In this document: in pieces, positions 39,483-64,000 of the stretch
Position numbering within the stretch: position 1 is the stretch's first letter
Layout: each line of letters starts with the position of its first letter
Source of the DNA: Blastocatellia bacterium
GTDB lineage: Bacteria > Acidobacteriota > Blastocatellia > HR10 > J050
Length of the DNA stretch: 64,000 nt
Assembly: GCA_026985075.1 (NCBI GenBank)
Contig: JALSQX010000011.1
Coordinates: 1 to 64,000, forward strand
Direction: 5' to 3'
Program-made: the position numbers and the translations under genes
Notes under the pieces: generated by a model
What the model was told of the DNA's origin: nothing
Seen by the model: the letters and a program-made list of their open reading frames with translations, nothing else
Database searches by the model: none

Positions 39483-39523
39483 CGTGTTCCCTCCCATCAT
39501 ACTCGTTGTGTTTTGTAGACCGC

Positions 39524-40711: not shown

Positions 40712-40834
40712 AGGCTCACTCCTGCAGATAGTGTCTGGCGTTGCGTGGAGTCCAGGAATTCGCGTCCGGCATCCATGGCCGCCCACCGTGATATGGACTC
40801 TGATCGAATGGACTCGACCGCCTCAGCATCTCGG

Positions 40835-41395: not shown

Positions 41396-41934
41396 ACGAA
41401 CTGATCTCCTTCTGTCACCCTGATGGCTCCATGCCTGGTGAACACCTTGGCCGCTTCTTCGGCGTCCGATGCGGCGTCCGACTGTTTGATCACACAGACG
41501 AACAAATCATCGGTCACCCGATCAAACACCCGGCGCTTACTGAACAGCCAGAGGCGATTCCGTATGAGCAGCATGCCGATGGCGATGAGACCCGAAAAAA
41601 GGACCGTCAGCTCGAATGTGACCGGAATGAACAGAGGGAATGAGTTGAACGGCGCGCCGCCGACATTCAGTGGCCAGTCGTAGACGGACGTCCAGATCTG
41701 GAGCGCCAACCCGGCCGCCAGTCCCATCACGCCGGCCACAAAGGCAATCCAGGTCAGGCGCGACCGTCGCAGTCCCATCGCCCGGTCCATGCCATGAACG
41801 GCAAACGGCGTGTACACATCGTGTATCTGGAGGCCAGCGCGCCGCGCCTCCCGGACGGCGGCCAGCACGTCTCGTTCGCGTTTGAAGAATCCAGCCATAT
41901 ACCTGACGTTGGGTTGACGGTCAGTCGCGGGCAT
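41392..41934 (-). CDS. actD: Alternative complex III subunit ActD (DUF3341)
   Basis: This encodes 180 residues. The N-terminal alpha/beta region GFFKRERDVLAAVREARRAGLQIHDVYTPFAVHGMDRAMGLRRSRL is the DUF3341 signature, with the YTPFAVHGMD motif. Two transmembrane helices follow, then the conserved loop WPLNVGGAPFNSFPLFIPVTFELTVLFSG and a soluble C-terminal tail. The subunit is membrane-bound with unresolved function in ACIII. The start overlaps actC by 14 bp and the stop overlaps actE by 4 bp, so it is tightly coupled. Confidence 0.93.
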   Translation of the reverse strand: MPATDRQPNVRYMAGFFKRERDVLAAVREARRAGLQIHDVYTPFAVHGMDRAMGLRRSRLTWIAFVAGVMGLAAGLALQIWTSVYDWPLNVGGAPFNSFPLFIPVTFELTVLFSGLIAIGMLLIRNRLWLFSKRRVFDRVTDDLFVCVIKQSDAASDAEEAAKVFTRHGAIRVTEGDQFV

Positions 41935-43327
41935 AGTGAAGCACCCCCTTGACTTCGTTAATGGAGATGACCGGGAAGACTCGCAAGAAGAGGAGATAGA
42001 GCGTGAAGAAGAGTCCGAAGCTTCCCGCCAGAATGAACACCTCGGTCATCGTCGGCATATACATCGCCCAACTCGATGGCATGAAATCGCGGTGCAGCGA
42101 CGTCACGATGATGACAAATCGCTCAAACCACATGCCCACGTTGATCAGGATCGAGATGATGAAGATCAATGGGATAGAGGACCGCACGCGCTTGAACCAG
42201 AAGAGTTGCGGGATCAGCGCATTGCAAGCGATCATCGTCCAGAAAGCCCAGCGATAGGGTCCGAGCGCCCGATTCACGATGACGAAGACTTCGTAGCGAT
42301 TGCCGCTATAAAACCCGATGTAGATTTCGATGAGATAGGACAGGGCGACGATCGAGCCGGTGAGCAACGTGACCTTGCACATGTTGTCGAAGTGCCGGAG
42401 GGTGATGTAGCTCTCCAGGTGCATGAACTTCCTGGTCGGAATGAGCAACGTCATCACCATGGCGAACCCGGAGAAGATCGCTCCGGCCACGAAGTACGGT
42501 GGGAAGATCGTCGTATGCCAGCCGGGCACGATGGAGACGGCGAAGTCGAAACTCACGATGCTGTGGACCGAGAGCACGAGCGGCGTGGCCAGCGCCGCCA
42601 GGACCATGTAGACGACTTCATATCGCGACCAGGTGCGGTGAGAGCCGTTCCATCCCAGGCTCAACACATGATAGACGGCGCGCCGCACTCGGGATCTGAT
42701 GCGGTCCCGGGCCGTAGCCAGATCGGGGATGAGGCCGAGATACCAGAACACGAGCGAGATGGTGAAGTACGTCGCGATGGCGAAGAAGTCCCAGAGCAGC
42801 GGCGAACGGAAATTCACCCACAACGACCCTCGCGCATTGGGGTAGGGCAGAATCCAATAGAACAACCAGGGACGGCCCAGGTGGATGATGGGGAAGAGAC
42901 CGGCGCAAATCACGGCGAATATCGTCATCGCCTCGGCCGACCGGTTGATGGAGGTTCGCCATTTCTGATTGAACAGATGAAGAATGGCCGAGATGAATGT
43001 CCCCGCGTGTCCGATTCCGATCCAGAAGACGAAATTGGTGATGGCGAACGCCCATCCCACCGTTTTATTCAATCCCCAGGTGCCGATGCCCGTGACCACT
43101 GTATAGCCGATGGCGATGAGGCCGGCCACGAGCACCGAAAATGAAGCCGAGAAGGCCAGCCACCAGCCCCGCCCGGGCTTCTGATCGAGGAGCTGACAAA
43201 TATCGGCTGTCGCCTCGCTATACGTTTTATGTCCCTCGATGAGCGGTTCCCGCAAAGGAGACAGGACGGGACGCTCGACTTCCGGTTTGACCTCAACTTC
43301 GGGAATGTGTTCAACGGCCACAGACAT
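41921..43327 (-). CDS. actC: Alternative complex III NrfD-like quinone subunit ActC
   Basis: This 468-residue integral membrane protein of the NrfD/PsrC family has about ten helices. Family landmarks include NKTVGWAFAITNFVFWIGIGHAGTFISAILHLFNQKWRTSINRSAEAMT, LGRPWLFYWILPYPN and WHTTIFPPYFVAGAIFSGFAMVMTL. It is the quinol-oxidising membrane subunit in ACIII, passing electrons to the Fe-S clusters of ActB. It starts 3 bp after actB with GAGG upstream. Confidence 0.95.
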   Translation of the reverse strand: MSVAVEHIPEVEVKPEVERPVLSPLREPLIEGHKTYSEATADICQLLDQKPGRGWWLAFSASFSVLVAGLIAIGYTVVTGIGTWGLNKTVGWAFAITNFVFWIGIGHAGTFISAILHLFNQKWRTSINRSAEAMTIFAVICAGLFPIIHLGRPWLFYWILPYPNARGSLWVNFRSPLLWDFFAIATYFTISLVFWYLGLIPDLATARDRIRSRVRRAVYHVLSLGWNGSHRTWSRYEVVYMVLAALATPLVLSVHSIVSFDFAVSIVPGWHTTIFPPYFVAGAIFSGFAMVMTLLIPTRKFMHLESYITLRHFDNMCKVTLLTGSIVALSYLIEIYIGFYSGNRYEVFVIVNRALGPYRWAFWTMIACNALIPQLFWFKRVRSSIPLIFIISILINVGMWFERFVIIVTSLHRDFMPSSWAMYMPTMTEVFILAGSFGLFFTLYLLFLRVFPVISINEVKGVLHYARD

Positions 43328-43330
43328 GCT

Positions 43331-46279
43331 CTATGCCTCCTCGCGATTTCGAACCCTGGCCAGATAGGTGATGTTGGGGCGTCGATTCAACTCCTCCAGG
43401 AGGACGTAGCCTCGCTTGTCTCGTCTCAATCGGGCGACGCGACTCTGGCGATCGACCAGATCGCCGAAGATGATCGCTCCGGCCGGACAGCTCTGCTGGC
43501 ACGCCGTTTGGATCTCGCCATCCTTGAGGGGACGGCCTTCATTGCGCGCGCGAATCTTCGCTTCCTCGATGCGCTGGATACAGAACGTGCATTTTTCCAT
43601 CACGCCGCGCGTGCGCACCGTGACATCGGGATTGAGGGCCAGGTTGGCGATGGGATCGGAATGGGGATACTGAAACCAGTTGAACCGACGCACCTTGTAC
43701 GGACAATTGTTTTCGCAGTATCGCGTCCCCACGCACCGGTTATATACCTGCATGTTCAATCCCTCGCTGCTGTGGACGGTCGCCAGCACCGGACAGACGC
43801 TCTCGCAGGACGCGTTGTCGCACTGGTAGCACATGACGGGAAGGTAAGACACGGTGGGATCATCCGCCTCACCTCGATAATAGCGATCCAATCTGATCCA
43901 GTGCATCTCCCGCCGCTCGCGCACCAGGTCTTTGCCGACGACGGGAACATTGTTTTCTGCCTGGCAACTGAGGATGCAGGCCGAGCAGCCGGTGCAAGCA
44001 TTCAGGTCAACGACCATGGCCCACTTGTGTTCGCCGTAGGGGTATTCTTCCCAGATGCTCCAGGATCGCGCCCTCTGCTGATCCTGATCCCCGTCCTCGG
44101 CGAGATATTCGGCGAGCGTGAGTTCTTTGATGAGCGGTCGCCCATCGAGCGTGTGATGGCGCTGCGTGGAAGCGAATTCCACGCGATGAGGCGTCTTCTC
44201 GATGGTGATGCCGTGCGTCAGGTACTGGAAGGTTCCTCGCTCGAATGAGACCAATGGATAGGCGTTGACGCCGACGTAACTCCCTCCTCGCCCCGCTTTC
44301 GTCCTTCCATATCCCAGGGCGATGGCGATAGTGCGGTCATCCTGTCCCGGTTGGATGAGAACGGGAAGTTCGAGCGAGACCTCTCCCTTGGAGAGACGAA
44401 TGACGCGGCCCTCTTCGAGCTGCCACTGTTCAGCCAGCTTGGGAGAGAGACTGGCATAGTTGTCCCAGGTCACTTTGGTGATGGGATCGGGAAGCTCATG
44501 GAGCCAGGGATTGCTGGCATGCGCACCGTCGCGGAGCGCCACGCTCTCATAGAGGATCACGCTGAGACTTTCGGCCATCTCAGTCGAGCGGGCTCGCAAT
44601 CGTCGCACGGCGGCGCCCACCTCATCGGCAGTGAATCGAGGGATCGTGGTCGATGCCGATGCCGATGTCAGAACGACGACCCCATCCTGGAGCGACCGAT
44701 CCCAGAACTCGTCGAAATTCGTCGTCCCGTTTTGTCGCGGAAATAGATGCTCCCGCCAGTGTTGCCGGAGAACCTCGTAGTAGCTCCGCTCATCGCCGCT
44801 CCACCGGAGCAGGCTCTCCTGATAGGCCCTCGTTTGGAACAGCGGAGCGATAGTTGGCTGGTTCAAACTGAACACGCCGGGCACCGGTTCGGCATCGTCC
44901 CACGTTTCCAGGAAGTGATGATGAGGGCAAATGTAGTCGACCAGAGCGGACGTCTCGTCGCGCCGAGGACTGAAGGAGATCTTCACCGGAACGTTGGACA
45001 GGCCTCTGATGAAATCCTCGCGGGCATAATAGTCATATGCCGGATTCACTCCGACCATGAGGAGGGCGGCGATTTTCCCTTCATTCATCTCCTTGACCAA
45101 CTGAACCATGTCCCCATCGCTGGCTTGGTTCTGGTTGGTGGGCGCGCGGAGATCGACCGTTTGGCCATATGCCCCGGTCAAGTGATTGATGAAGTTGACC
45201 ACACACTGCACGTCCACGTCGTTGGAGCCACTGATGACCAGCGATCGCCCGGGCCACTGCCATACCTGCCTCGCCGCCCGTTCCACGGCATCGCGCACGC
45301 GTTCGGGGAGTTGGGTCTCATCCAACGAGCGCAATTCGGCCGGCGGATGGCGGAAACGCTTCTCGGCGACGCGCTTGGCCAGGAGCAGCAGGGCCGCTAT
45401 CTCCTCGGCCGGAGAGACGCGGACGCGCGCGTCGGCATTGATGCCGGTCAGAGACAATCTCGACTCGAATTGGATGTGACGCAGCATCTCTCGGCGGCCA
45501 TCCTGGAGGTTGCGTGCCCGCGCATACTGGCGCGTGAATTGCACCGGGGCCAGCCAGGTTCCCAGAAAATCGGCGCCGAAGCTGATGATTAACCTCGCCT
45601 TGTCCAATCGATAATTTGGCACCACGGCCACTCCATGCGTCTTCTGATGCGCCTGGGAAATGGCGGCGGTGGACACGGGTTCATACACGATGTGTCGGCC
45701 GTCGGCGAACTGGTTGAGGAATCGAGCGATGACCTCCCTGGATGTCGGGCTGTTGATGGTTGAGCTCAACAACCGCACCGCGCCGCCGGACTGCTTGATG
45801 GTCGTCAACGTCTCGATGATCTGGCGATCCACTTCTTCCCAATCGGCGCCTTGGGAACCGATCATCGGCTGGCGAAGCCGCTCCGCGTCATACAGATCGA
45901 ACACCATGGCGTGGGCCACGGCGCACAAGCCGCCTTCGGTCAACGGATGTTGGGGATTTCCTTCCAGCTTGATCGGTCGACCATCGCGGACTTTCACCAG
46001 TACGCCACAGGCCGCGCGACAGCCACCACACGTGGACGCATACCAGTTGGCTACGCCCGGCGTGAGCTCAACCGGCTGGTTGAGATAAGGGATGATTTTC
46101 TGTTCCGGCGGACGGCAACTGCTGAAGGCCAAGGCGGCCGCTGAGAACCCGATGAGCTCGATGAACGTTCGCCGCGACATGCCCGCTCGGGGCAGCGGCG
46201 AAGAGGTCTCATCGCCAGCCGCCGCTTCGGCATCCGCCTCCCAACGTTGAAAGACCTTCCAGAGTTTCTCCCCGTTCAT
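43331..46279 (-). CDS. actB: Alternative complex III fused molybdopterin-like/ferredoxin subunit ActB
   Basis: This encodes 982 residues with two fused modules. An N-terminal extension precedes a twin-arginine-type signal SRRTFIELIGFSAAALAF (about residues 35-52). The molybdopterin-oxidoreductase-like module follows, with CGGCRAACG and a further Cys in GGLCAV. As in other ActB proteins, I see no Cys or SeCys ligand for molybdenum. The C-terminal ferredoxin module carries four cluster motifs: ACTGCSACILSCQAENN, CYQCDNASCESVCP, CVGTRYCENNCPY and CTFCIQRI with a later CQQSCP. It transfers electrons from ActC to the haems of ActA. The start follows AAGGAGAT. Confidence 0.96.
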   Translation of the reverse strand: MNGEKLWKVFQRWEADAEAAAGDETSSPLPRAGMSRRTFIELIGFSAAALAFSSCRPPEQKIIPYLNQPVELTPGVANWYASTCGGCRAACGVLVKVRDGRPIKLEGNPQHPLTEGGLCAVAHAMVFDLYDAERLRQPMIGSQGADWEEVDRQIIETLTTIKQSGGAVRLLSSTINSPTSREVIARFLNQFADGRHIVYEPVSTAAISQAHQKTHGVAVVPNYRLDKARLIISFGADFLGTWLAPVQFTRQYARARNLQDGRREMLRHIQFESRLSLTGINADARVRVSPAEEIAALLLLAKRVAEKRFRHPPAELRSLDETQLPERVRDAVERAARQVWQWPGRSLVISGSNDVDVQCVVNFINHLTGAYGQTVDLRAPTNQNQASDGDMVQLVKEMNEGKIAALLMVGVNPAYDYYAREDFIRGLSNVPVKISFSPRRDETSALVDYICPHHHFLETWDDAEPVPGVFSLNQPTIAPLFQTRAYQESLLRWSGDERSYYEVLRQHWREHLFPRQNGTTNFDEFWDRSLQDGVVVLTSASASTTIPRFTADEVGAAVRRLRARSTEMAESLSVILYESVALRDGAHASNPWLHELPDPITKVTWDNYASLSPKLAEQWQLEEGRVIRLSKGEVSLELPVLIQPGQDDRTIAIALGYGRTKAGRGGSYVGVNAYPLVSFERGTFQYLTHGITIEKTPHRVEFASTQRHHTLDGRPLIKELTLAEYLAEDGDQDQQRARSWSIWEEYPYGEHKWAMVVDLNACTGCSACILSCQAENNVPVVGKDLVRERREMHWIRLDRYYRGEADDPTVSYLPVMCYQCDNASCESVCPVLATVHSSEGLNMQVYNRCVGTRYCENNCPYKVRRFNWFQYPHSDPIANLALNPDVTVRTRGVMEKCTFCIQRIEEAKIRARNEGRPLKDGEIQTACQQSCPAGAIIFGDLVDRQSRVARLRRDKRGYVLLEELNRRPNITYLARVRNREEA

Positions 46280-46321
46280 ATCTCCTTGCTTATGCTGAAG
46301 CGCGCCATGGGCGCGCCATCG

Positions 46322-46909
46322 TTAGTGGTGGCACACCGAACAGTCGGTTGACGCCATCAATTTCTCCCGCGTCGGCTCTCGGGTGATGATCGGCTTGCCC
46401 GATTCGTCCACGGTGACCACGCGGTGCGTGCGGTGACAATCGACGCACATGCCCATGCTGAGCGATCGGAATTGAGAGATTCGCTCCATGGTCTCCACCG
46501 GTCCGTGGCACTGTTGGCATTTGATTCCCGCCCAGACGTGGCGGCTGTGATTGAATTTGGTGAAGTCCGGCAGGTCGTGGACGCGGACCCAGGCGATAGG
46601 CCGATTCTCTTTGAGCGCCCGCACAATCTTCTGGATCTCCGGCGCGTCCTTTCGGATCTGGGAGTGGCAATTCATGCAAATCGACGCTGCCGGAATGCCC
46701 GCCACACTCGATTTTTCCGCCGCCCAATGGCAGTAGAGGCAGGGAATCTGGTTGTCTCCGGCGTGCAGTTTATGCGAGAAAGCGATCGGTTGCGCCGGCG
46801 CGTAGCCTTGATGATTGTTGAACCAGTGGAAGCTCGCCCCGCGCAACAGAGCGACAGCGCCGGTGATGGTGACCAGGAGCGAAATGATCTTAGCCGTCGT
46901 CAAGCTCAT
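46322..46909 (-). CDS. actA: Alternative complex III pentahaem cytochrome c subunit ActA
   Basis: This encodes 195 residues. One N-terminal membrane helix (8-24) anchors a periplasmic domain with five CxxCH sites: C57-H61, C78-H82, C131-H135, C155-H159 and C190-H194. The segments QPIAFSHKLHAGDN and KFNHSRHVWAGIKCQQCHGPVETM provide distal His ligands and are diagnostic for ActA/QrcA-type cytochromes. It starts 4 bp after the narI stop, with GAGGTGAGACG upstream, so nar and act genes are contiguous in one transcription unit. Confidence 0.96.
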   Translation of the reverse strand: MSLTTAKIISLLVTITGAVALLRGASFHWFNNHQGYAPAQPIAFSHKLHAGDNQIPCLYCHWAAEKSSVAGIPAASICMNCHSQIRKDAPEIQKIVRALKENRPIAWVRVHDLPDFTKFNHSRHVWAGIKCQQCHGPVETMERISQFRSLSMGMCVDCHRTHRVVTVDESGKPIITREPTREKLMASTDCSVCHH

Positions 46910-46913
46910 CGTC

Positions 46914-47684
46914 TCACCTCGTGAATGCCGGTCGTCGTCTGGTCATTGGTTCTCTGATCGGCTCGCTCGCCTCTACGGGCTGCTGGCTCAGCGCGGGAGC
47001 CTGACCTCTGATCCGCCAGCGATTCCAGTTCCAAATGACCAGTTGATAGGGCCGCCACAGATACTGGACGGGAAAGACCAGCATGTGAACCAATCGAGAG
47101 AAACCAAAGATGGCCACCAGCAGATAAGCGTTCACAATGTGGAGCTTCACAACCCACGGTAGCGGCGCGATCAACTGGACATCCGGCCGTAAGGCCAGGA
47201 GCGAACGCAGGTAGGGAACGGCGACGGCGGCATACCAGGATGATCCCCAACGGTAGAAAATAGCCGTATACACGCCGAGCGCCACCTGAATGAGCAACAG
47301 AACGAGCACGATGACGTCCATCGGCGTAGTGACCGCCCGCACCCGCGCTGACACGATCCGCCGCACCAGCAGGCTCACAATACCAACCAGAGCCAGCAGA
47401 CCGAACAGTAACCCGGTGCTCTCCAGGATATACAATCGCACCGGCACGCCATTGAACCAGAGCACGCGCTCGGGGAACAACAGACCGATCAGATGGCCGA
47501 TGAGAACGGCGATGATGCCAAAATGCCAAGCCACAGAGCCGTAGAACAACTCACCGCTCTCCAGGAACTGCGATGAGAGACTCGAATAGGAGAAGCCGCT
47601 CTTGAAATATCGCTGAGCGGTCGCCACGACCGCCAACAGCACGGCGGCATAAGGGAAGATGACGAACAACAGATTGTCCATCAT
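46914..47684 (-). CDS. narI: Respiratory nitrate reductase gamma subunit (cytochrome b)
   Basis: I chose ATG 47684 because AAGGAG lies five bases upstream, giving 256 residues. Five membrane helices are visible. The haem-ligand pairs expected of NarI are seen: SVAWHFGIIAVLIGHLIGL (two His ten residues apart) and KLHIVNAYLLVAIFGFSRLVHMLV (two His). The protein oxidises quinol at the periplasmic side and passes electrons to NarH. The C-terminal tail RRRPAFTR is basic. It follows narJ by 10 bp. Confidence 0.95.
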   Translation of the reverse strand: MMDNLLFVIFPYAAVLLAVVATAQRYFKSGFSYSSLSSQFLESGELFYGSVAWHFGIIAVLIGHLIGLLFPERVLWFNGVPVRLYILESTGLLFGLLALVGIVSLLVRRIVSARVRAVTTPMDVIVLVLLLIQVALGVYTAIFYRWGSSWYAAVAVPYLRSLLALRPDVQLIAPLPWVVKLHIVNAYLLVAIFGFSRLVHMLVFPVQYLWRPYQLVIWNWNRWRIRGQAPALSQQPVEASEPIREPMTRRRPAFTR

Positions 47685-47694
47685 AGTCGCTCCT

Positions 47695-48294
47695 TCACCG
47701 CTTGACTGCGGCCTTTGACGTGATGGTATACACCTCGGGAACCGATGAATGACGCATCGCCTTGTCGACCTGCGATGACCGGGACATCCCCACATCCTGG
47801 GCCAGCGCCCGGCCAACCATGCGGAGAAGATGACCATACGGATTCTCGCTCTCACCGAGAGCCCGGGCCATCTTGTTCACCGCCGGGATCATGATCTCCC
47901 GGATGAGGGCATTGCGCAGCTCTCGGTCATCCAGCCTCGCCACCAATCGAAGCAGCACCGGGAGGTAATCCGGAAGTTGCCGATCCTGACCGAGATCGTA
48001 AGGCGATTCGGTCTCGCGCAATCGCGCCAGCAGCACTCCTCGCTTATAGTTCTCGCCGAAGATATGGTATCCGATCTCCAGCGCACATGTGGGATTGAGA
48101 TCGAACGTATGGGTATACAGCTCCTGAAGCGCCGTCACCGAAAGGGCGTCCACGTTCTGGCGGAAGGCGAGAAAATCCTCGACCAGATCGGGATGCCCAG
48201 CGCTCACCTGGCGCTCACACCGGCTGAGCCGCGCATCCCAATCCTCGTCGGGATACTCCAGTAGATCGGCTACTCCGTCGTAAAGATGATCCAT
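47695..48294 (-). CDS. narJ: Nitrate reductase assembly chaperone
   Basis: This 199-residue helical protein belongs to the NarJ/TorD family and guides molybdenum cofactor and Fe-S insertion into NarG without being part of the mature enzyme. Diagnostic text is LQELYTHTFDLNPTCALEIGYHIFGENYKRG, followed by LPDYLPVLLRLVARL. It begins 3 bp after narH and its position between narH and narI is the standard order. Confidence 0.95.
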   Translation of the reverse strand: MDHLYDGVADLLEYPDEDWDARLSRCERQVSAGHPDLVEDFLAFRQNVDALSVTALQELYTHTFDLNPTCALEIGYHIFGENYKRGVLLARLRETESPYDLGQDRQLPDYLPVLLRLVARLDDRELRNALIREIMIPAVNKMARALGESENPYGHLLRMVGRALAQDVGMSRSSQVDKAMRHSSVPEVYTITSKAAVKR

Positions 48295-48297
48295 CTC

Positions 48298-49791
<1,494 letters not shown>

Positions 49792-49850
49792 AAGCGTTGC
49801 CCTCAGTCAATGAATCGGTCGCCCGCGGTCATGGTGTGACCACAGACGAA

Positions 49851-53488
<3,638 letters not shown>

Positions 53489-53492
<4 letters not shown>

Positions 53493-54352
53493 GATGTGCT
53501 CCTCCTCACCAATGGTTCGCGGACGCCGCGGAGACGACTCTTCCAGATGACATTGAGTCCAATGATCGCGCCTAACAGGACCACGAAGCCGATGGTCACA
53601 AACCAAGGTTCGATGCGAGCGATGCCCGCCAAGGCTTGAGTCGTCGGATGGGCCGGCTTGACGTTTTGCAAGTAGGCGAAGAGCTGAACGATTTCTTCGT
53701 CAGTGAGCGGCCGCGTGCCGAATACCGTCTTCATGGTGGGGAAATTGGGATTCTGCAAGATGGCGATCAGCTCCGGGTCGCGATACTTCACATTGACGGC
53801 GGTCAGATCGGGACCGAGCGTGCCGCCGCCCAACCGTCCCACACCGCTCACCGTGTGACAGGAGATGCACGCCGGACCTCCATTGCTCAACGCCCGTCGT
53901 CCGACGAACAATTGCCGTCCGAGATCGATATCGGCTGGCGTCACCGGACGACTCAGCTTCGCCCCAGCGGGGACGAAGGTCTCGTTTTTCCTGGTGAGCT
54001 CATCGATCAGGGCGAGGATGGCATCGATTTGCTCATCGGTGATATCCTGGTCGGGCATGACTTCCGGAGCGAATTTTTTGAACAGGGCGCGCGCTTCCGG
54101 ATCGCCACGGCGATTCATGGCAGCAGGCGATTTGATGTATTCGTGCAACCAATCGCGGGAGCGTCGGAGCGTCACGCCCTTCAGGTCCGGTCCCTTCTTG
54201 TCGCCACTCCCGATATTGTGACAACTATAACACCGCTTCTCGAACAGCGTGGCCCCGGGCGAAGGAGCCTGTCCTCGCGCCTCAATGGAAATGAGCAATC
54301 CTGCGCACAGCCCGATCACACTCCATGTGAACCCGCTTCGCATGCTCATCAT
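53489..54352 (-). CDS. Membrane-anchored diheme cytochrome c, NarC-like
   Basis: I take ATG 54352, with AAGGGG upstream, giving 287 residues; ATG 54367 is an alternative. A signal peptide (about 1-28) leads to two cytochrome c domains with haem sites [10 protein letters not shown] and CISCHTVSG. Probable axial Met residues are in [13 protein letters not shown] and [12 protein letters not shown]-terminal membrane helix (about 248-268) anchors it with a short cytoplasmic tail. In Thermus the nar operon also starts with a diheme cytochrome, NarC. Here it may link the nitrate reductase or ACIII to other carriers. Sequence homology to Thermus NarC is not tested. Confidence 0.85.
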
Positions 54353-54363
54353 AGAGATCCCCT

Positions 54364-54834
54364 TCATTTCTGCTCCTGATCGCCGCCTCGCATACTAGGC
54401 TGCGCGAGTGATCGGTCAACTGGCCGATGGCTCGAAACGAAGGCGGCGACCTCGGAAATCGTTTTGCTTTTCAGTAACCCAATCACGGCCTGACGCACCT
54501 TCTGCCACTCTTCGTGCAGTGCGCAGGCCGATTCATGACTGCACTGCTCATACCCCAAAATGCACATGTCCAGATAAGGATCGGGATCGAGAACCCGGAA
54601 TACCTCCCACAACGTGATGACGTCCGGGGAACGAGCGAGCTCATACCCTCCGTGGATGCCTTTGGTCGATCGGAGCAGACGGTGGCGCCGCAACTCGCCC
54701 AACACTTTGCGCAAGTAGACGGGAGGGATTTTCTCGTGTTCGACGATCTCCTGGAGACCACACGGCCTGTTAGGATGGTTGGCCAAATAGGCCAACGCTC
54801 TGATGCCATATGCCGTGGTCTTGGAAAATATCAT
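54364..54834 (-). CDS. Rrf2-family regulator, probably Fe-S sensing
   Basis: This 156-residue regulator starts [18 protein letters not shown], the usual Rrf2 opening, followed by a winged helix ([42 protein letters not shown]). Potential cluster ligands are C91, C98, C104 and H107 ([18 protein letters not shown]), which align closely with the IscR pattern and resemble NsrR. It is the first gene of the nar-act array and lies 11 bp before the cytochrome start. By family behaviour it should sense Fe-S status, nitric oxide or oxygen and control its own operon. The last 25 residues are polar and of no known role. Confidence 0.88.
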
Positions 54835-54944
54835 CTCTACCTCACTAAATTACCTCTTTGTCCTTTTTAGAGATGGCATGGTTGCATTTTCGGCGGTTCG
54901 AGACAATAATTAGTCCACATCATTTTTGTGATGCGAGTGATCGA

Positions 54945-55604
54945 ATGCGCCTCGGGGAGATCAAAAAGTTGGTCGAGAGCACGGCCGACGCCGCCTTCGC
55001 CGTCGATGGGTTGGGGGTGATTGTGGCGTGGAATGAGGCGGCGGAATCTCTTTTCGGCGTGCCGGTCGGCGAGGCCATCGGCAAGCCCTGCGGCGAGATT
55101 CTGAAGGGATCGGATGAGTGTGGGCCAGTCTGTTGTCGCGATTGCACCATCCAGCAGGCGGTTCGAAAACGTCATCCGCTGAGCAACTTCGATCTTCAGG
55201 TTCACACGGCATCAGGGCTGCAATGGTGTAACTTTTCCGTGCTCATCGCCAGCGATGCTGGTTCTGCGTTCCCCTACGCCATCCACATCGTTCGCCCCGT
55301 GGATATTCGCAAGCGATTGGAATTGGTGGTGCGCGACTTCATCGTCAGCGAGACGGATCTCCCCCCCGATCAGGCCACCAAGGTGACGGCGGTGCGATCG
55401 CCCGCTCGCGGAGCGGACTTGACCAAACGGGAACTGGAGATCTTGCGCCTGCTGGCCCGAGGGATGACCACAACCGATATTGCGGACGCGTTGTTCATCA
55501 GTCGCACGACGGTCAATAACCACATCCAGCATATCCTCCGTAAGCTCAACGCTCATAGTCGATTAGAAGCTATCCGGCGAGCCGAACGGGCCGGATTGAT
55601 TTGA
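54945..55604 (+). CDS. PAS-LuxR transcriptional regulator with clustered cysteines
   Basis: I chose ATG 54945, which gives 219 residues and begins just before the PAS domain; ATG 54858 extends it by 29 residues but leaves only 23 bp between divergent genes. The PAS domain (ESTADAAFAVDGLGVIVAWNEAAESLFG) contains five cysteines within 19 residues (GKPCGEILKGSDECGPVCCRDC), suited to a redox, metal or Fe-S cofactor. A linker leads to a LuxR/FixJ-type helix-turn-helix: LTKRELEILRLLARGMTTTDIADALFISRTTVNNHIQHILRKL. There is no receiver domain. It separates the nar-act operon from the second Act-like operon and could regulate either. Confidence 0.85.
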   Translation: MRLGEIKKLVESTADAAFAVDGLGVIVAWNEAAESLFGVPVGEAIGKPCGEILKGSDECGPVCCRDCTIQQAVRKRHPLSNFDLQVHTASGLQWCNFSVLIASDAGSAFPYAIHIVRPVDIRKRLELVVRDFIVSETDLPPDQATKVTAVRSPARGADLTKRELEILRLLARGMTTTDIADALFISRTTVNNHIQHILRKLNAHSRLEAIRRAERAGLI

Positions 55605-55853: not shown

Positions 55854-56387
55854 GTGGTGATCAGGAAGCGGGTGTGGTTTCACTTAGCGGTTATCGTCAT
55901 TCTCACCTTTTTGGGAAGCGGATTCCTGCTGTGGAGCTTGCTGGCGGGCACGCCGGAACAACCCATCGCCTTCAGTCACAAAGTTCATGTCGAGAAGCAA
56001 ATCGCCTGTACGTTCTGTCACCAATACGCCGATAAGTCTCCCCAGGCGGGTCTTCCCAGCGTTCAACTCTGCATGACCTGTCATCAGGTGATCAAAGCTG
56101 ATAGCCCAGAGATTCAGAAGGTGCGCGCCTATCTCGATCAGCAGCGAGAGATTCCCTGGGCGCGCGTGTATGGATTTCCGGCCCATGCGCACGTTCGCTT
56201 CCATCACCAGCGTCACGTTGCCGCCGGCATAGACTGCGCCAAGTGTCATGGGGACGTCGGGCAAATGGCGGTCGCCGAGCGAGCCATCAGGCATACGATG
56301 GGATGGTGCGTCGAATGTCATAAACAGAATCGATCCCGGTTCGCCAAGCCCCGATTAGCCACTGATTGCCTCACCTGTCACTACTGA
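55854..56387 (+). CDS. Pentahaem cytochrome c, ActA/QrcA-like
   Basis: This 177-residue protein begins at GTG 55854 with GAGGAG upstream. One membrane helix (about 9-30) anchors a periplasmic domain with five CxxCH sites: C52-H56, C73-H77, C128-H132, C152-H156 and C172-H176. The order and spacing follow ActA of the first cluster, with QPIAFSHKVHVEKQ and VRFHHQRHVAAGIDCAKCHGDVGQM as the distal-ligand segments. It is the electron-exchange subunit of the second Act/Qrc-like complex and should face periplasmic carriers. It ends 16 bp before the catalytic-like subunit. Confidence 0.92.
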   Translation: MVIRKRVWFHLAVIVILTFLGSGFLLWSLLAGTPEQPIAFSHKVHVEKQIACTFCHQYADKSPQAGLPSVQLCMTCHQVIKADSPEIQKVRAYLDQQREIPWARVYGFPAHAHVRFHHQRHVAAGIDCAKCHGDVGQMAVAERAIRHTMGWCVECHKQNRSRFAKPRLATDCLTCHY

Positions 56388-56403
56388 GGAGGACCGTTTA
56401 CAC

Positions 56404-58743
56404 ATGAAGCGACGCGAGTTTCTCATCACCACGACTCTGGGGGCGGGAGCGACCGTTGTGCTCCAAGGTTGCGGGCATCGAGAAGAGCGACTCATCCCTC
56501 TCCTCGTGTCCGAGGAACAGCTCGTGCCGGGCGCCCAGTACTGGACGGCGAGCGTCTGTCGCCAGTGTCCGGCCGGTTGCGGCATCGTGGTCAAGACCAT
56601 GCTCGGCGAAGCGACGACGACAGTCGATGGTCAAACGGTGCGCGTCAAACGGCGGCAGGCCAAGAAAATCGAGGGGAATCCCGACCATCCGCTCAATCGA
56701 GGCCGGCTCTGTGCTCGCGGGCAGGCGGGCTTGCAGGTCCTCTATAATCCCGATCGGCTCCAGGGACCATTGAGGCGAACCGGACCGCGGGGTTCCGATC
56801 AATATGTTGAGATCACCTGGGAGGAGGCTATCCGGTTGCTGGTCGAGCGACTCCAGGGATTGCGGCAACGCCACCAGGCCCATGCCCTGGTCTTTCTCAC
56901 TGGCCGGTTATCGAAGCACACGCGCTTGCTCGTCGAGCGATTCATGCGCGCCTATGGCTCGCCCAATCACATCACGTATGAGCTGTTCGATGATGCTGTC
57001 GAGCGTCGAGCGAATGAGCTCACCATGGGGCGAGAGGCTTTGGCGACGTATGATCTCGCCCGGGCGCGTTATGTGCTCTCGTTCAGCGCCCCTTTCCTGG
57101 AGACCTGGCGTTCGCCGGTCTATTACAGTCTGGGATTTGGGAGCATGCGACAGGGACGTCCGGGCGTGCGCGGCAAGCTGGTGCACGTCGAGCCGCGCTT
57201 CTCGCTGACAGCGGCCAGCGCCGATGAGTGGCTTCCCATTAATCCAGGAACGGAGGGGACGCTGGCCATGGGACTGGCCGGGATCATCATCGAAGAGAAT
57301 CTCTTCGATCGGGCATTCATCGAGCGCCACACCCGTGGATTCCAGGCGTTCCGTCAGTTGGCGCGTGAGGAGTATCCTCCCGAGCGGGTCTCCGAGATCA
57401 CCGCCATTCCTGCTGAGACCATCGTGCGTCTGGCTCGCGAGTTCGCTCAACACCGGCCCAGCCTGGCATTGGGCGGTGGTGCGGCGGCGGCCCACACGAA
57501 CGGCCTCTTCAACCTGATCGCCATCCAGGCTCTCAACGCCCTGGTAGGGAACTTGGGCCGGCCAGGCGGTCTCTCGTTCACCCCCGATCCGCCATTTCAA
57601 GAATTTCCACCGGTGCCCGAGACGCCTCAAACCCGGGAGAGCTTGCGCCAGCCTCGACTCGATCGCGTCGACGGAGCAACGAGCATCCCCGCGCTCATCG
57701 AGCGATGGCGGTCGGGCCAACCATATGCCGTGGATACGCTCTTTCTCTATGAAGTCAATCCGCTGTTCACGCTTCCTCCAGCGTTAGGTGTGCGAGAGGC
57801 GCTCCAGAAGATCCCTTTCATCGTCAGTTTTTCATCTTTCAAAGACGAATCCGCGGCATGGGCTGATTTGATTCTGCCCGATCACACCTACCTGGAGAGC
57901 TGGTGGGATGAAGTGCCGGAGCCGGGAGCGGGACAGCCGGCAGTGGGACTGGCTCAGCCGGTGGTCAAACCGCTATATAACACGCGCCTCACATCGGATG
58001 TGTTACTCCACGTGGCTCGGACTATCGGCGACGATATGCGGGCGGCTCTCCCCTGGGAGCGATTCGAGGATTTTTTGAAGGAGGCCTATCGCGGTCTCCA
58101 TCGCGCCGTGGGTGAAGGAGGGGATTTCGAGCATTTTTGGGAGGAGGTTCTCAAAAACGGCGGTTGGTGGATGCCCGATGACCAGCGGTCGTCACTGACG
58201 GACCATCCGGAGCCACAAACATTTGATTTTTCGCCCGCGCTCTCGCATCGGCGACAACCGACGTTCGCTGGCGATGAGCGAGCCTATCCCTTTCACCTGC
58301 ACATCTATCCATCCATCGCCTTTTTCGATGGCCGAGGCGCCAACCAACCTTGGCTCCAGGAGATGCCCGATCCGATGACCACGGTGGCCTGGGGATCATG
58401 GGTGGAGATTCATCCTCGGACGGCCGAGCAGCTTGGAGTGAGCGAGGGCGATTGGGTGTGGATCGAATCGCCCCATGGCCGGATTCAGGCCCCAGTGGTT
58501 CTCTTTCCCGGAGCGCGACCGGATACCGTCAACATACCGGTGGGGCAAGGTCACCAGGCCTACGGACGCTACGCGAAGGACCGGGGCGCCAATCCCGTTC
58601 GTCTGCTCACGCCATTGATGGAACCCGTGTCGGGCGGATTGGCTTGGGCGGCCACGCGGGTGAAGGTGTCAAAGGCACCTGACCGCGGTCGACTCGTCAC
58701 CGTGGGTTACACGAGGGTGCATACGGAAGCTGAACGACGGTGA
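56404..58743 (+). CDS. Molybdopterin-oxidoreductase-like subunit of Act/Qrc-like complex
   Basis: This encodes 779 residues. The N-terminus MKRREFLITTTLGAGATVVLQGC combines a twin-arginine motif with a lipobox-like cysteine at 23, so it is probably a Tat-exported, possibly lipidated, periplasmic subunit. The domain retains four Fe-S cysteines (CRQCPAGC and RLCARG). The region where catalytic family members carry a Cys or Ser molybdenum ligand shows neither (ELFDDAVERRANELTMG), as in ActB and QrcB. The C-terminal part (WVEIHPRTAEQLGVSEGDWVWIESPHGRIQAPVVL) is the molybdopterin-dinucleotide-binding-like domain. Unlike ActB of the first cluster it is not fused to a ferredoxin module. Confidence 0.88.
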   Translation: MKRREFLITTTLGAGATVVLQGCGHREERLIPLLVSEEQLVPGAQYWTASVCRQCPAGCGIVVKTMLGEATTTVDGQTVRVKRRQAKKIEGNPDHPLNRGRLCARGQAGLQVLYNPDRLQGPLRRTGPRGSDQYVEITWEEAIRLLVERLQGLRQRHQAHALVFLTGRLSKHTRLLVERFMRAYGSPNHITYELFDDAVERRANELTMGREALATYDLARARYVLSFSAPFLETWRSPVYYSLGFGSMRQGRPGVRGKLVHVEPRFSLTAASADEWLPINPGTEGTLAMGLAGIIIEENLFDRAFIERHTRGFQAFRQLAREEYPPERVSEITAIPAETIVRLAREFAQHRPSLALGGGAAAAHTNGLFNLIAIQALNALVGNLGRPGGLSFTPDPPFQEFPPVPETPQTRESLRQPRLDRVDGATSIPALIERWRSGQPYAVDTLFLYEVNPLFTLPPALGVREALQKIPFIVSFSSFKDESAAWADLILPDHTYLESWWDEVPEPGAGQPAVGLAQPVVKPLYNTRLTSDVLLHVARTIGDDMRAALPWERFEDFLKEAYRGLHRAVGEGGDFEHFWEEVLKNGGWWMPDDQRSSLTDHPEPQTFDFSPALSHRRQPTFAGDERAYPFHLHIYPSIAFFDGRGANQPWLQEMPDPMTTVAWGSWVEIHPRTAEQLGVSEGDWVWIESPHGRIQAPVVLFPGARPDTVNIPVGQGHQAYGRYAKDRGANPVRLLTPLMEPVSGGLAWAATRVKVSKAPDRGRLVTVGYTRVHTEAERR

Positions 58744-58796
58744 TCTGCGCCCTTCGCCAGTCATCGAGAAGCGGAGGGCCGAGGAGGAAAACGGAG

Positions 58797-59492
58797 ATGG
58801 CAAAATGGGGCATGGTCATCGACCTGGATCGTTGTACGGGATGCGAAGCCTGTGTCATCGCCTGTCACGCGGAGAACAACCTGCCCATCGTAGGGGAAGA
58901 AGAGTCAGCGAAGGGCCGACAGCATAACTGGATTCGCGTCGAACGCTATTGGGAAGGCGAGTATCCTCATATTCGGGCGCGGTTCATCCCCGTGCTCTGC
59001 CAGCAGTGTGATCATGCTCCTTGCGAACCGGTGTGCCCGGTCTATGCCACCTATCATAACCCCGAAGGACTCAACGCTCAGGTGTACAATCGATGTATTG
59101 GAACGCGATTCTGTGCCAATAACTGTCCCTACACGGTGCGCGTCTTCAACTGGTTCGATCATCACTGGGAGAAACCTCTTGACGAGCAACTCAATCCAGA
59201 CGTATCTATTCGCACGCGAGGGATGATGGAAAAGTGCACTTTCTGCATTCAACGCATTCATCGGGCGCGCCACCAGGCCGAGGACGAAGGTCGGGACATT
59301 CGGGATGGCGATGTTCAGCCGGCATGCGTCCAATCCTGTCCCACCGAGGCCATGGTGTTCGGCGATTTGGACGATCCGGACAGTCGCGTCTCGCAGCGAG
59401 CGCGGAGTCGCCGCGCGTTTCGCTTACTCGAAGAGTTGGGGACGGAGCCCAGTGTCATTTATCTCAAAGGCGATGAATGGGTCGAGCCATAG
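58797..59492 (+). CDS. Four-cluster ferredoxin subunit of Act/Qrc-like complex
   Basis: I chose ATG 58797 because GAGGAGG lies upstream, giving 231 residues; a longer frame overlaps the previous gene. The start AKWGMVIDLDRCTGCEACVIACHAENN has the first cluster (C13, C16, C19, C23). It continues with CQQCDHAPCEPVCP, CIGTRFCANNCPYTVRVFNWF and CTFCIQRI, with CVQSCPTEAMVFGD closing. It matches the C-terminal module of ActB segment by segment, but as a free subunit. It would conduct electrons between the NrfD subunit and the pentahaem cytochrome. Confidence 0.92.
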   Translation: MAKWGMVIDLDRCTGCEACVIACHAENNLPIVGEEESAKGRQHNWIRVERYWEGEYPHIRARFIPVLCQQCDHAPCEPVCPVYATYHNPEGLNAQVYNRCIGTRFCANNCPYTVRVFNWFDHHWEKPLDEQLNPDVSIRTRGMMEKCTFCIQRIHRARHQAEDEGRDIRDGDVQPACVQSCPTEAMVFGDLDDPDSRVSQRARSRRAFRLLEELGTEPSVIYLKGDEWVEP

Positions 59493-59537
59493 CGGCGAGG
59501 ATGGAAGATCTGGCCCTTCCCTCCGAGGTGGGCAAGA

Positions 59538-60953
59538 GTGACCGGAATGTCTCAATCGGATGGCCGAACTATGAGTGACGAAACCGGATCTCTGACGACA
59601 CGCATGATGCACGAAGATCTCATCCGTCCAGTGGTGTTCACCGGGCGGCGATTTTATCTGGCGGTGGCTTTGTTGGGACTGATCGTGCTCTGGGGATTGG
59701 CCGCTTGGGGATATCAAGTGAGGACGGGCATGGGAGTTGCCGGCATCAACAGCCCAGTCTTTTGGGGCGTGTACATTGCCACCTACATCTTTTTCATTGG
59801 CATCAGCAATGCGGGCACGCTCATTTCCGCCATGTTGCGTCTGAGCCATGCTGGTTGGCGCCATCCAGTGACCCGGTGTGCGGAAGCGATCACTGTGTTC
59901 GCGCTGATGGTCGGGGGGATGTTTCCGCTCATTCATCTAGGCCGCGTCTGGAAATTTTATTGGCTCATCCCCTATCCCAATGAACGGGGATTGTGGCCCA
60001 ACTTTCATAGTCCGCTGGTGTGGGATTTCATGGCCATCAATACCTACTTGTTGGGAAGTTTCGTCTACCTTTATCTGCCGATGTTGCCCGACTTGGCCTT
60101 GATCCGCGATCGCGTGAACGGGTGGCGGCGCCGGTTCTATGGCTTGCTCGCCCTCGGCTGGAGCGGGACACCGGTAGAGTGGCATCGACTGGAGAAGGCG
60201 ATCTCTATTCTGGCCGTCGTCATCATTCCTGTGGCCATCTCCATGCATTCGGTCGTCGCCTGGGATTTCTCGGTAGCCCTCAAGCCGATGTGGCACAGCA
60301 CGATCTTCGCTCCCTATTTTGTCGTCGGCGCGCTCTTTTCGGGCATTGCCATATTGATAGTAGCTATGGTGATCTTGCGCCGCGTGTTCCACCTGGAAGC
60401 GTATCTGGAGCCCATCCATTTCAATAATCTCGGATTGCTCCTGCTGATGTTTTGCTGCTTGTGGCTCTATTTCACGTTCGCCGAATATCTGGTGACCTGG
60501 TACGGCCACCTGCCCGATGAGATGGCCCCATTCCGATTCAGGGTAGAAGGATCGTTGGCCCCATTTTTCTGGGGCATGGTGTTGATGAACTTCGTCATTC
60601 CCGTTCCCATTCTGGCGGTGCGCAAGACGCGAACGGTCACCGGCTGTCTGGTGGCCTCGTTGTCCATCCTCATCGGCATGTGGTTGGAGCGGTATCTCAT
60701 CGTCGTCGGGACGCTCTCGCGCCCGCGACTGGAGTTCGCCTGGGGGCATTATGCGCCCACGTGGGTGGAAATGTCTATTCTCGCGGGGACGATCGCCTAT
60801 TTCATCCTGTTATACGTGTTGTTCAGCAAGCTCTTTCCCATCATCTCTATCTGGGAGTTCAAGCAGGGACGCCGTCTTCGTGAGCGAAGACCCACGAGGG
60901 ATGTCCCCGTCATGGCCGATGAACCATTTCCTGGAGTGATGCTGGATGACTGA
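59538..60953 (+). CDS. NrfD/ActC-like quinone-reactive membrane subunit
   Basis: This 471-residue protein (start 59538; ATG 59571 also possible) has about ten membrane helices. NrfD-family text includes GVYIATYIFFIGISNAGTLISAMLRLSHAGWRHPVTRCAEAIT, LGRVWKFYWLIPYPN and WHSTIFAPYFVVGALFSGIAIL, each with a close counterpart in ActC of the first cluster. It should bind quinone on the periplasmic side and is the likely energy-coupling subunit. It overlaps the DUF3341 gene by 8 bp. There is no ActF-like second membrane subunit after it. Confidence 0.93.
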   Translation: MTGMSQSDGRTMSDETGSLTTRMMHEDLIRPVVFTGRRFYLAVALLGLIVLWGLAAWGYQVRTGMGVAGINSPVFWGVYIATYIFFIGISNAGTLISAMLRLSHAGWRHPVTRCAEAITVFALMVGGMFPLIHLGRVWKFYWLIPYPNERGLWPNFHSPLVWDFMAINTYLLGSFVYLYLPMLPDLALIRDRVNGWRRRFYGLLALGWSGTPVEWHRLEKAISILAVVIIPVAISMHSVVAWDFSVALKPMWHSTIFAPYFVVGALFSGIAILIVAMVILRRVFHLEAYLEPIHFNNLGLLLLMFCCLWLYFTFAEYLVTWYGHLPDEMAPFRFRVEGSLAPFFWGMVLMNFVIPVPILAVRKTRTVTGCLVASLSILIGMWLERYLIVVGTLSRPRLEFAWGHYAPTWVEMSILAGTIAYFILLYVLFSKLFPIISIWEFKQGRRLRERRPTRDVPVMADEPFPGVMLDD

Positions 60954-61470
60954 ACGAGTTCTCGGTGTATTTGAAACGCCTGCCGATGCCCGTCGAGCGG
61001 TGAGGGAATTGGTCAACGCGGGCATCCCGCGACAAAACATCATCATCTGTTCGACCGAACCAATGCTCGATCCCGAGTTCCTCCCAGTTGAAGATCGGAA
61101 GACGCGGATGTCGCTCTGGGCGATCGTGGGCGCCATTCTGGGGTGCGCCATTGGTTATTCATTGCCGGTCACCGCTGCTCGGCTTATGGGGCTCGCATCG
61201 GGGGGGCAACCCATCGTCTCGTTATGGGCTTTTGCCATCGTCATTTTTGAATTGACGGCGCTTGGCGCTATCGGTGGAACGGTCATCACGTTCTTTCGCG
61301 AGGCGGGTCTGCCCGAGCGGCCCAGAGCCATTCCCAGCGCTGAGATGGCCAGGACGTTTGTCGACGCTGGCTTGATCGTCGGTGTGTCGGGCGATCGCAT
61401 GGAGACAATCGAGATAGCCGATCGCCTGTTACGAGAGGCGGGGGCCAGAGAGATCGAGCATCAGAGATAA
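60946..61470 (+). CDS. DUF3341 (ActD-like) subunit
   Basis: This 174-residue protein has an N-terminal alpha/beta segment (VLGVFETPADARRAVRELVNAGIP), two membrane helices (about 55-75 and 88-115) and a soluble tail. It is a divergent DUF3341 protein: the YTPFAVHGMD motif seen in the first cluster is replaced by ICSTEPMLDPEF. Its presence links this complex to ACIII rather than to Qrc of sulphate reducers, which lacks ActD. It is the last gene of the operon. The 214 bp that follow separate it from the convergent barrel gene and show no clear terminator. Confidence 0.82.
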   Translation: MTERVLGVFETPADARRAVRELVNAGIPRQNIIICSTEPMLDPEFLPVEDRKTRMSLWAIVGAILGCAIGYSLPVTAARLMGLASGGQPIVSLWAFAIVIFELTALGAIGGTVITFFREAGLPERPRAIPSAEMARTFVDAGLIVGVSGDRMETIEIADRLLREAGAREIEHQR

Positions 61471-61684: not shown

Positions 61685-63859
61685 TCAAAAAGAGAGCCGC
61701 AAACTCGTGGTCAACAGGTTGGCCCGGTAATCCTGAATCGAGCGACCGCGCTCATTATACCCGTAGTGCTGATAGTTGATGTTCAACGTCACCGTGTCAT
61801 GCAGAGGGAAGCTCAATCGGGCGTAAGGGCGGTGAAAATTGATGGGAAAACTGCCGCTGGAGTTCACGAGCCGATAACCGAAATCCGTACGAACGCCTTT
61901 ATAGAGCGTCAGATTGATGCCCGCTTGCACCACGTGACTATCCTCTCGATAGACGATCACGGGACGCGGCGCGTTTCCTCGATCTCGATCCAGGGTGTAG
62001 ATGGTGGCCGTGATATGACTGCGCGTGTAATCCACATCCAGCGTCGCTCGCTTCTGGGGGAACCACGACAGGGAGAAGCCGCCGCTTCGATAGCGATTCT
62101 GATTCCGTAACATGAGATCGAGTCCCTGTCGGGTCCGGTTCGGTCGCGTTTGATCGGAGACCGTTCCCGAGGCGGTGAACGACCATCGATCATTCGGCCG
62201 GAACTGAATGCGAAGCCGCCCCCGTTGATAATCGCGCGGCTCGACGCGGGTGAAAGAAGTGAGACGGCCTCCATTTTCATAGTCGAATGCCAGGCGGAGC
62301 CGGCGTCGCCAGCGATAACTGAAGCCGGTAAACAGCGTGTGCGTATTTTGCGTCGTCTGTTCATCGCGTGGCTCGAAGTCGAAGGGGGGCTCGGGACCGA
62401 AGATCGAAGAGCGGATGCTCTGTCGGTCGCGTTCTTGCAAAAAGGTGCGCCGGTGCTCGAACCGATAGCCGGCGCGCACGATGAGTTGATCGGTGATCGC
62501 GTAGTCGCCCTGCACCCGATTCATGAACGCATTCAAGAACTCGCGCCGGAATGAGGTCTGCTCCACCGTCACCTGTTCTTCAGGCGCATCGAAGTTGGTG
62601 AATTGTTCGCCGAAGGTCGTGGCACCAGCGATGACGAAGTGCGCACCACGAAACGTCTCGCTCACCGCTAATCGTCGCCCGAGGCGAAGGCGCATGGTTC
62701 CATCGGCGACGAGGTGAGGTCGGCGGGGATTCGCCCGATTGGCCGCCAGCCCGCGAGAAGCGAAGAGAAACGTCTCTCGATTCAATACCACACCGCTGAA
62801 AAAGCGCGCGTAGGCATAATCGATGTCGGCGTCGCTATAGTAGAGCCGTGCCGTGAAGGCCAAGCGTCGCAGACCCCGAGAACTCACCGCCACTCGGGTA
62901 GTGGGAATGGAGCCGCGGGCGAAGTAGAATCGTTGGAACGCGGTGAGAAAGATCTGTTGGAAATCGAAGAGCAGATCGGGACTGTTCCCCAAACTGAACG
63001 TTCCCGGGAGCGCGTTCCCCTGATCATCTCTGAAGCGACGGAATCCCTGCTCGAAGCCCATCGTCAGCTTCCACACGCTCAGGTCGACGCCGAACGTGTA
63101 ATCGTCCGTGCTGTTCTTGACGCGACGAGCGATGAGAAACTCATCACCCCCCATGTTCACGGTGATGAAGGCGGGCCCCGAGATGCTGTTCCGAGCGTAA
63201 CGGAGATGCACCTGCAGGCGCGGGGCGTGAGGGAAGAGATCCAGACGGGCGCTCTGAAGGCGACGGGAGAGGTCAAAACTATGTTGGCCGAGCACCGTGC
63301 CGCTGGCCTGGCGAGCGCCGATCTTCCGTCGCACCGCTTCGGCGAACGATGGGTTGGCAAACTGAGGGATGAAGTTGAAGGAATCGATCTTTTGATAGTG
63401 ATACGCGAAGTCGTACCAGAGATCTTTCTTCACGCGCACTCGCGCTGTGTTATAGGGGTCCCCTCCCCAGTGATCCAGAGTCACGCTCAAACTATCGAAT
63501 AATCGGCCACTGCTCTCCGGAGCGCGTAGTTCGAAAGATGACGAGAACAATTTCAACCCATTGCCCAGATTGACGTGGCTGCGATAGACGTCCTCGTTGC
63601 CATCGAAATCGCGCCACCGCGGCCCGAATTCAATGGTGTTCTTGAGCCGCAGCCCACCGAAGGTGATGGGTTCGCGCTGAGGTGGCACCAGGTGCGACGA
63701 TGAGGCCGAGGCCGTCGCCGGAGGAGAAGAATGGACTTCGGTGATCACCTCGTTCGCGGCCGGTCGTTGCGCCGAGACGGAGTACAGGCCGAGGGCCAGC
63801 GCTGGGGCGAGTCCCAGGACGTTGATCATAGACGGGCCGATCCATCGACGTCTTCTCAT
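61685..63859 (-). CDS. Outer-membrane beta-barrel, MtrB/PioB-like candidate
   Basis: This encodes 724 residues. A basic signal peptide (about 1-32) ends near VSAQ and is followed by a short Ser/Ala/Pro linker. From about residue 65 to the end the protein is a regular alternation of amphipathic strands (…TIEFGPRWRDFDG…YHYQKIDSFNF…) closing with LLTTSLRLSF, as expected of a large barrel. Such barrels beside MtrA/DmsE cytochromes form the sheath of porin-cytochrome conduits. The N-terminal CxxC of Shewanella MtrB is absent, so assignment rests on size, fold and the cytochrome gene 44 bp upstream. It converges on the second Act-like operon. Confidence 0.7.
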   Translation of the reverse strand: MRRRRWIGPSMINVLGLAPALALGLYSVSAQRPAANEVITEVHSSPPATASASSSHLVPPQREPITFGGLRLKNTIEFGPRWRDFDGNEDVYRSHVNLGNGLKLFSSSFELRAPESSGRLFDSLSVTLDHWGGDPYNTARVRVKKDLWYDFAYHYQKIDSFNFIPQFANPSFAEAVRRKIGARQASGTVLGQHSFDLSRRLQSARLDLFPHAPRLQVHLRYARNSISGPAFITVNMGGDEFLIARRVKNSTDDYTFGVDLSVWKLTMGFEQGFRRFRDDQGNALPGTFSLGNSPDLLFDFQQIFLTAFQRFYFARGSIPTTRVAVSSRGLRRLAFTARLYYSDADIDYAYARFFSGVVLNRETFLFASRGLAANRANPRRPHLVADGTMRLRLGRRLAVSETFRGAHFVIAGATTFGEQFTNFDAPEEQVTVEQTSFRREFLNAFMNRVQGDYAITDQLIVRAGYRFEHRRTFLQERDRQSIRSSIFGPEPPFDFEPRDEQTTQNTHTLFTGFSYRWRRRLRLAFDYENGGRLTSFTRVEPRDYQRGRLRIQFRPNDRWSFTASGTVSDQTRPNRTRQGLDLMLRNQNRYRSGGFSLSWFPQKRATLDVDYTRSHITATIYTLDRDRGNAPRPVIVYREDSHVVQAGINLTLYKGVRTDFGYRLVNSSGSFPINFHRPYARLSFPLHDTVTLNINYQHYGYNERGRSIQDYRANLLTTSLRLSF

Positions 63860-63903
63860 ATCGCTCTGCGCTCACCTTGATGCCCGTTCATCTGCCCGTT
63901 CCT

Positions 63904-64000
63904 TCATCGGAAAAAGAGTCGGCTCGTATTGGAGCCATGAATCATCACATGACAGCTCGTACAGTTCTGAAAGCGCGGCAGTCGCAGATCGTGGACAAAT
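63904..64000 (-). CDS. MtrA/DmsE-like multihaem cytochrome c, C-terminal fragment
   Basis: Read on the minus strand, the frame from 63999 to the TGA at 63904-63906 encodes FVHDLRLPRFQNCTSCH, then VMIHGSN and a short end LFFR. The CxxCH followed by x3-HGSN is the characteristic final haem of decahaem MtrA/PioA/DmsE cytochromes. The gene continues beyond the window, so the number of haems is unknown. It ends 44 bp before the barrel gene and is transcribed in the same direction, which is the usual MtrA-MtrB order. Confidence 0.75.
   Translation of the reverse strand, partial: FVHDLRLPRFQNCTSCHVMIHGSNTSRLFFR

Follow-up and report, generated by a model that had tools for sequence, protein, structure and literature searches.

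The 64,000-nucleotide stretch of DNA analyzed here (C11:1-64000, referred to as the window) ends in two minus-strand genes that very probably encode a trans-outer-membrane conduit of the MtrAB/PioAB type, that is, a divergent form of a known device, present as a stand-alone unit and as the second of two paralogous conduits in the genome. This assignment, which agrees with an earlier note on this DNA that had proposed an MtrA/MtrB-like conduit, is based on a curated family match of the cytochrome, remote full-length homology of the barrel, near-invariant adjacency of the two genes, and matching trees. In the predicted conduit, a periplasmic ten-haem wire of the DmsE/MtrA family would be threaded into a large outer-membrane β-barrel and would pass electrons between periplasmic multihaem carriers and an extracellular donor or acceptor. 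We infer the physical complex, its outer-membrane location, electron flow, inner-membrane partner, and substrate from the genes.

The genome of this uncultured Acidobacteria bacterium (5.2 Mb in 105 contigs, 98.7% complete) carries the window on a contig of 90,649 bp, so the bases past position 64000 could be read. The earlier note had recognized the terminal haem signature of a decahaem cytochrome near the window's end. This motif, CTSCH-VMI-HGSN (CTSCHVMIHGSN), was found at 63935-63963 on the minus strand, just upstream of the barrel ORF, in the 3′ portion of the gene contained in the window (63904..64000, minus strand). The whole gene extends over C11:63904-65004 when read from a GTG (366 codons). 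An alternative ATG lies 33 codons in, at C11:64905, and gives 333 codons; the product starting there (Met34 onward) begins with a hydrophobic Sec-like export signal, as judged by eye, and this ATG is the likelier start. The encoded cytochrome contains exactly 10 CxxCH motifs and 27 histidines, whereas shuffles of its own mature sequence contained 0.15 CxxCH motifs on average and 2 at most. The earlier note had advised looking for at least eight further motifs past base 64000; the complete gene has 10 in total, which excludes the mono- or dihaem cytochrome named there beforehand as a refutation. The protein scored 218.5 bits against TIGR03508 (DmsE family decaheme; cut-off, 192.2) over model positions 1-257 of 258. 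It also matched 6r2q_A over 263 residues (E=4.4e-32) with the haem motifs aligned; we take 6r2q to be the Shewanella baltica MtrCAB structure and chain A to be MtrA, the chain being misnamed in the copy searched. These two matches place the cytochrome in the MtrA/DmsE family.

The barrel gene (61685..63859, minus strand) is an ORF of 724 codons that follows the cytochrome gene in the same orientation after a gap of 44 bp. The product had no Pfam match and no match to TIGR03509 or PF11854, the MtrB/PioB models, at E<=0.01. Its sole NCBIfam match was to GSU2204, at a sub-threshold level (E=0.001), and only 2 and 5 of its 23 relatives had weak matches to TIGR03509 and PF11854, respectively. Direct searches of the PDB with the sequence and with the barrel-family profile gave no match. 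We compared two alignments, one of the 23 barrel relatives from the class (A4) and one of 12 Acidobacteriota proteins scoring over the TIGR03509 cut-off, which were gathered independently of the first (A5). The A5 profile matched 6r2q_B (MtrB) with E=2.6e-81. In hhalign, A4 and A5 matched with a probability of 99.3%, an E-value of 1.5e-20, and a score of 177, the 595 aligned columns spanning almost the entire length of both proteins. The controls scored 43 over 133 columns for the reversed A5, 15-18 for five column shuffles, and 44-57 over about 155 columns for a 14-member alignment of TonB-receptor barrels.

Two other features of the protein were consistent with an outer-membrane β-barrel. 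The C-terminal residue is phenylalanine, and 23 amphipathic segments of alternating hydrophobicity were counted, compared with 10.6 +/- 3.0 in shuffles. A barrel of the MtrB/PioB type would be expected to have about 26 strands and to hold the cytochrome inside; an AlphaFold model made with only three aligned sequences had an unusably low pLDDT of 29. The barrel contains no cysteine and hence lacks the N-terminal CxxC that is a feature of Shewanella MtrB. Acidobacteriota MtrB-family proteins also lack this motif, and its absence is thus no argument against homology. The results show that the 724-residue β-barrel noted earlier downstream of the cytochrome is a remote MtrB/PioB homologue, not a member of the TIGR03509 and PF11854 models.

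The association of the two genes was examined across the class. In all 24 loci inspected, a decahaem gene lay directly upstream of the barrel gene on the same strand and within about 150 bp, one of these genes being a contig-end fragment with 8 motifs. In a survey of 147 genomes, in which an upstream TIGR03508 gene was counted within 700 bp, 87 of the 91 barrel matches were paired; three of the four unpaired matches start less than 100 bp from a contig end, and the fourth is a fragment. Both genes occurred in 76 genomes, the barrel without the cytochrome in none, and the cytochrome without a recognized barrel in five. A profile search of contigs with a two-row barrel alignment gave matches in the sister genome only. 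The locus has the arrangement that defines porin-cytochrome complexes, in which the genes for the barrel and for a periplasmic multihaem cytochrome lie side by side in the same orientation.

Exactly two cytochrome-barrel pairs were found in the genome, that of the window and one on contig C25. The gene order of the two pairs is the same. The decahaem cytochromes share 50% identity with all ten motifs conserved, and the barrels share 36% identity. On C25, the plus-strand order is an 11-haem/cytochrome-b fusion, OmcA/MtrC, DmsE, barrel, Rieske protein, cytochrome b, a nine-haem cytochrome, and a five-haem cytochrome. The OmcA/MtrC product scored 498.6 bits against TIGR03507, and the fusion presumably resembles CbcL. 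By its predicted gene content, the C25 copy is a full extracellular-electron-transfer cluster. Window-type and C25-type proteins formed separate clades, both with support of 100/100, in the separately built cytochrome and barrel trees, and the pairwise distances of cytochromes and barrels were correlated (r=0.94). From these congruent trees and distances, the pair appears to have been duplicated as a unit before the divergence of three families of the order, with both conduits kept since that early stage. Pairs of the window type were found in G000, G001, G002, G020, and G038 and were absent from genus g3. In C25-type clusters of related genomes, an additional gene for a five-haem membrane cytochrome was observed upstream of the decahaem gene (L043:6267-7703, L045:6284-7732, L046:12658-14145, and L047:12152-13627). 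That of L043 includes an NrfH/CymA-like stretch, and no such gene was seen at the corresponding position in the window's own genome.

An OmcA/MtrC-like surface cytochrome, which the earlier note had advised looking for past base 64000, was not found beside the pair: none was detected within about 15 kb upstream, and the only TIGR03507 gene of the genome is that of the paralogous C25 cluster. Nine of 10 genomes in the order have OmcA/MtrC; most have one such gene and G038 has two, and the gene sits inside the C25-type cluster in G000 and G002. No surface-cytochrome gene was seen in the window-type loci inspected, and the window copy consists of the two conduit genes alone. In G038 (C192:5080-14642), two more DmsE-family genes flank OmcA/MtrC with no recognized barrel adjoining, which suggests that a further barrel type may exist.

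The pair converges on a five-gene plus-strand operon (55854-61470, referred to as Act2) that is most like Qrc, a menaquinone reductase, and alternative complex III (ACIII), with scores below every equivalog cut-off. It encodes a QrcA/ActA-like pentahaem cytochrome with 5 CxxCH motifs (55854..56387; NF041781 QrcA, 86 bits, cut-off 180), a QrcB/ActB-like molybdopterin-fold subunit (56404..58743; NF041783 QrcB, 331 bits, cut-off 440), a QrcC-like Fe-S subunit (58740..59492; NF041782 QrcC, 273.7 bits, cut-off 400), an ActC-like integral membrane subunit of the NrfD type (59538..60953; PF03916 NrfD, 7e-31), and an ActD-like subunit (60946..61470; PF11821 ActD, 2.4e-20), whose gene ends 214 bp from the end of the barrel gene. 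The region between the convergent operons showed neither a terminator nor a promoter signal, and its predicted RNA fold is ordinary. In the molybdopterin-fold subunit, the N-terminal 4Fe-4S cysteines are kept, whereas orthologues differ freely at the Mo-ligand position, a pattern that fits an electron-transfer complex without Mo better than a terminal reductase.

Several other genes and operons were observed in the window and on C25. On the minus strand, a first, canonical-looking ACIII operon (38163-46909) encodes a pentahaem ActA, a fused ActB, an NrfD-type ActC, an ActD, and further subunits, and a NarGHJI nitrate reductase operon (46914-54367) has a dihaem cytochrome c gene ahead of it, an arrangement that we take to be like narC-G-H-J-I of Thermus. 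A PAS-LuxR regulator gene (54858-55604, plus strand) lies directly upstream of the Act2 operon and is conserved in G001. A third Act/Qrc-like operon (L066:3125-9990, identical to C25:15124-21989) was found on C25; its molybdopterin subunit scored slightly higher as ArrA than as QrcB, both below the cut-off.

The earlier note had also proposed an electron route through the facing operon. This part of the proposal went further than the data, which consist of convergent neighbouring genes. The sister genome G001 has the pair, Act2, PAS-LuxR, NarC, and NarG in the same order, but the linkage of the pair and Act2 was found in two genomes of one genus only; in G020 they lie on different contigs, and G002 has the pair and lacks Act2. 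Co-occurrence of the pair and Act2 was considered as evidence and rejected. G000, G001, G020, and G038 have the two together and g3 has neither, but G002 is an exception, and other families have Act2-like operons without a window-type pair. The third Act/Qrc-like operon converges on the C25 conduit cluster, so convergent Act/Qrc-like operons accompany both conduits; since this concerns one genus, the arrangement is suggestive of a circuit and no proof of one. One candidate for the inner-membrane partner of the window conduit is the Act2 complex, with its pentahaem cytochrome as a possible electron partner.

The two directions, outward to Fe(III) or extracellular quinones and inward from Fe(II), are of nearly equal plausibility, the outward one being slightly favoured. 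The specific inward route, comparable to PioAB/MtoAB, would lead from extracellular Fe(II) or minerals through the pair to the pentahaem subunit of the Act/Qrc-like complex, from there into the quinone pool, and finally to nitrate or oxygen. It agrees with our reading on the conduit itself and differs on direction and partner. The pair without a dedicated MtrC, the similarity of the Act2 subunits to those of a menaquinone reductase, and the nitrate reductase upstream are in line with this route, and so is the presumed habitat. The label of the nearest relative, J050, is in the style of the metagenome-assembled genomes (MAGs) from Jinata Onsen, which carry three-digit J labels and come from a spring whose source water has a temperature of 63 °C, a pH of 5.4, and 261 µM Fe2+ (PMC6759342), although that paper does not name J050. 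However, MtrAB-type conduits run both ways and gene content does not set the direction, and the dependence on Act2 is at odds with its linkage to the pair in a single genus and with its absence from G002. We therefore regard this route in its complete form as a real possibility, though a doubtful one.

It is improbable that the pair instead works like DmsEF, feeding a surface-exposed molybdoenzyme such as DMSO reductase for the respiration of an extracellular soluble compound. The cytochrome matches a model named after DmsE, and a neighbouring gene encodes a molybdopterin-fold protein, but the name of TIGR03508 also covers MtrA, a stretch of about 15 kb showed no DmsAB genes, and the neighbouring protein is QrcB/ActB-like, has the freely varying Mo-ligand position, and belongs to a five-gene operon with an NrfD subunit and ActD. 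Least credible of all is that the barrel, which has no curated family match above cut-off, is a transporter or porin of unrelated origin whose place behind a decahaem gene is fortuitous, given the near-constant pairing, the congruent duplications of cytochrome and barrel, and the full-length match to MtrB/PioB profiles that TonB barrels did not give.

Conduits have already been reported in Acidobacteriota, and the window pair is a divergent member of this known type. Two porin-cytochrome complexes were described in Holophaga, claimed as the first report in the phylum (PMC7399161). Three Acidobacteria MAGs from hot springs were reported to have putative extracellular-electron-transfer systems (PMC6137239), and three further Acidobacteriota MAGs to have MtrABC genes (PMC9671151); porin-cytochrome complexes were also reported in Acidobacteriota MAGs from a cave system (PMC13264449). 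In the literature searched, which excluded most subscription journals, we found no report of the paired paralogues or of the divergent barrel lineage seen across the class. A pair of this kind occurs in about half of the sampled genomes of the class, but its barrel escapes the standard MtrB/PioB models. Acidobacteriota are common in soils and hot springs, and their capacity for extracellular electron transfer may for this reason be underestimated. A full and a bare conduit in one genome also offer a natural comparison for the role of the surface cytochrome and for whether the inner-membrane partner sets the direction. A more far-reaching picture, unlikely as a whole, would be that the class has its own divergent MtrB lineage, that in the order a duplicated pair free of a surface cytochrome is wired to a second Act/Qrc-like quinone oxidoreductase, and that a single cell thus runs two circuits across its outer membrane, perhaps in opposite directions, with the inward one serving, for example, Fe(II)-dependent nitrate respiration.

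The window pair was compared with known systems. Like Shewanella MtrAB(C) (6r2q), it combines a periplasmic decahaem cytochrome of the MtrA family with a large predicted barrel encoded behind it, which is remotely homologous to MtrB over its full length; it differs in having no adjoining MtrC/OmcA and in its cysteine-free barrel, which scores below the MtrB/PioB cut-offs. PioAB of Rhodopseudomonas and MtoAB of Sideroxydans likewise combine a decahaem cytochrome and a barrel in a cluster without a surface decahaem cytochrome, whereas no CymA/ImoA, MtoD, or PioC-like gene adjoins the window pair. For GSU2203/GSU2204 of Geobacter, the decahaem family match was 197 bits, and GSU2204 was the best, though weak, named barrel match, obtained for 13 of the 23 members; both matches fall well short of the curated cut-offs (325 and 350 bits, respectively), and Geobacter GSU2204 is a CXXCH-containing (seleno)protein, unlike the window barrel. 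The C25 cluster, in contrast to the window pair, has OmcA/MtrC, the CbcL-like 11-haem/cytochrome-b fusion, the Rieske protein, cytochrome b, and further multihaem cytochromes.
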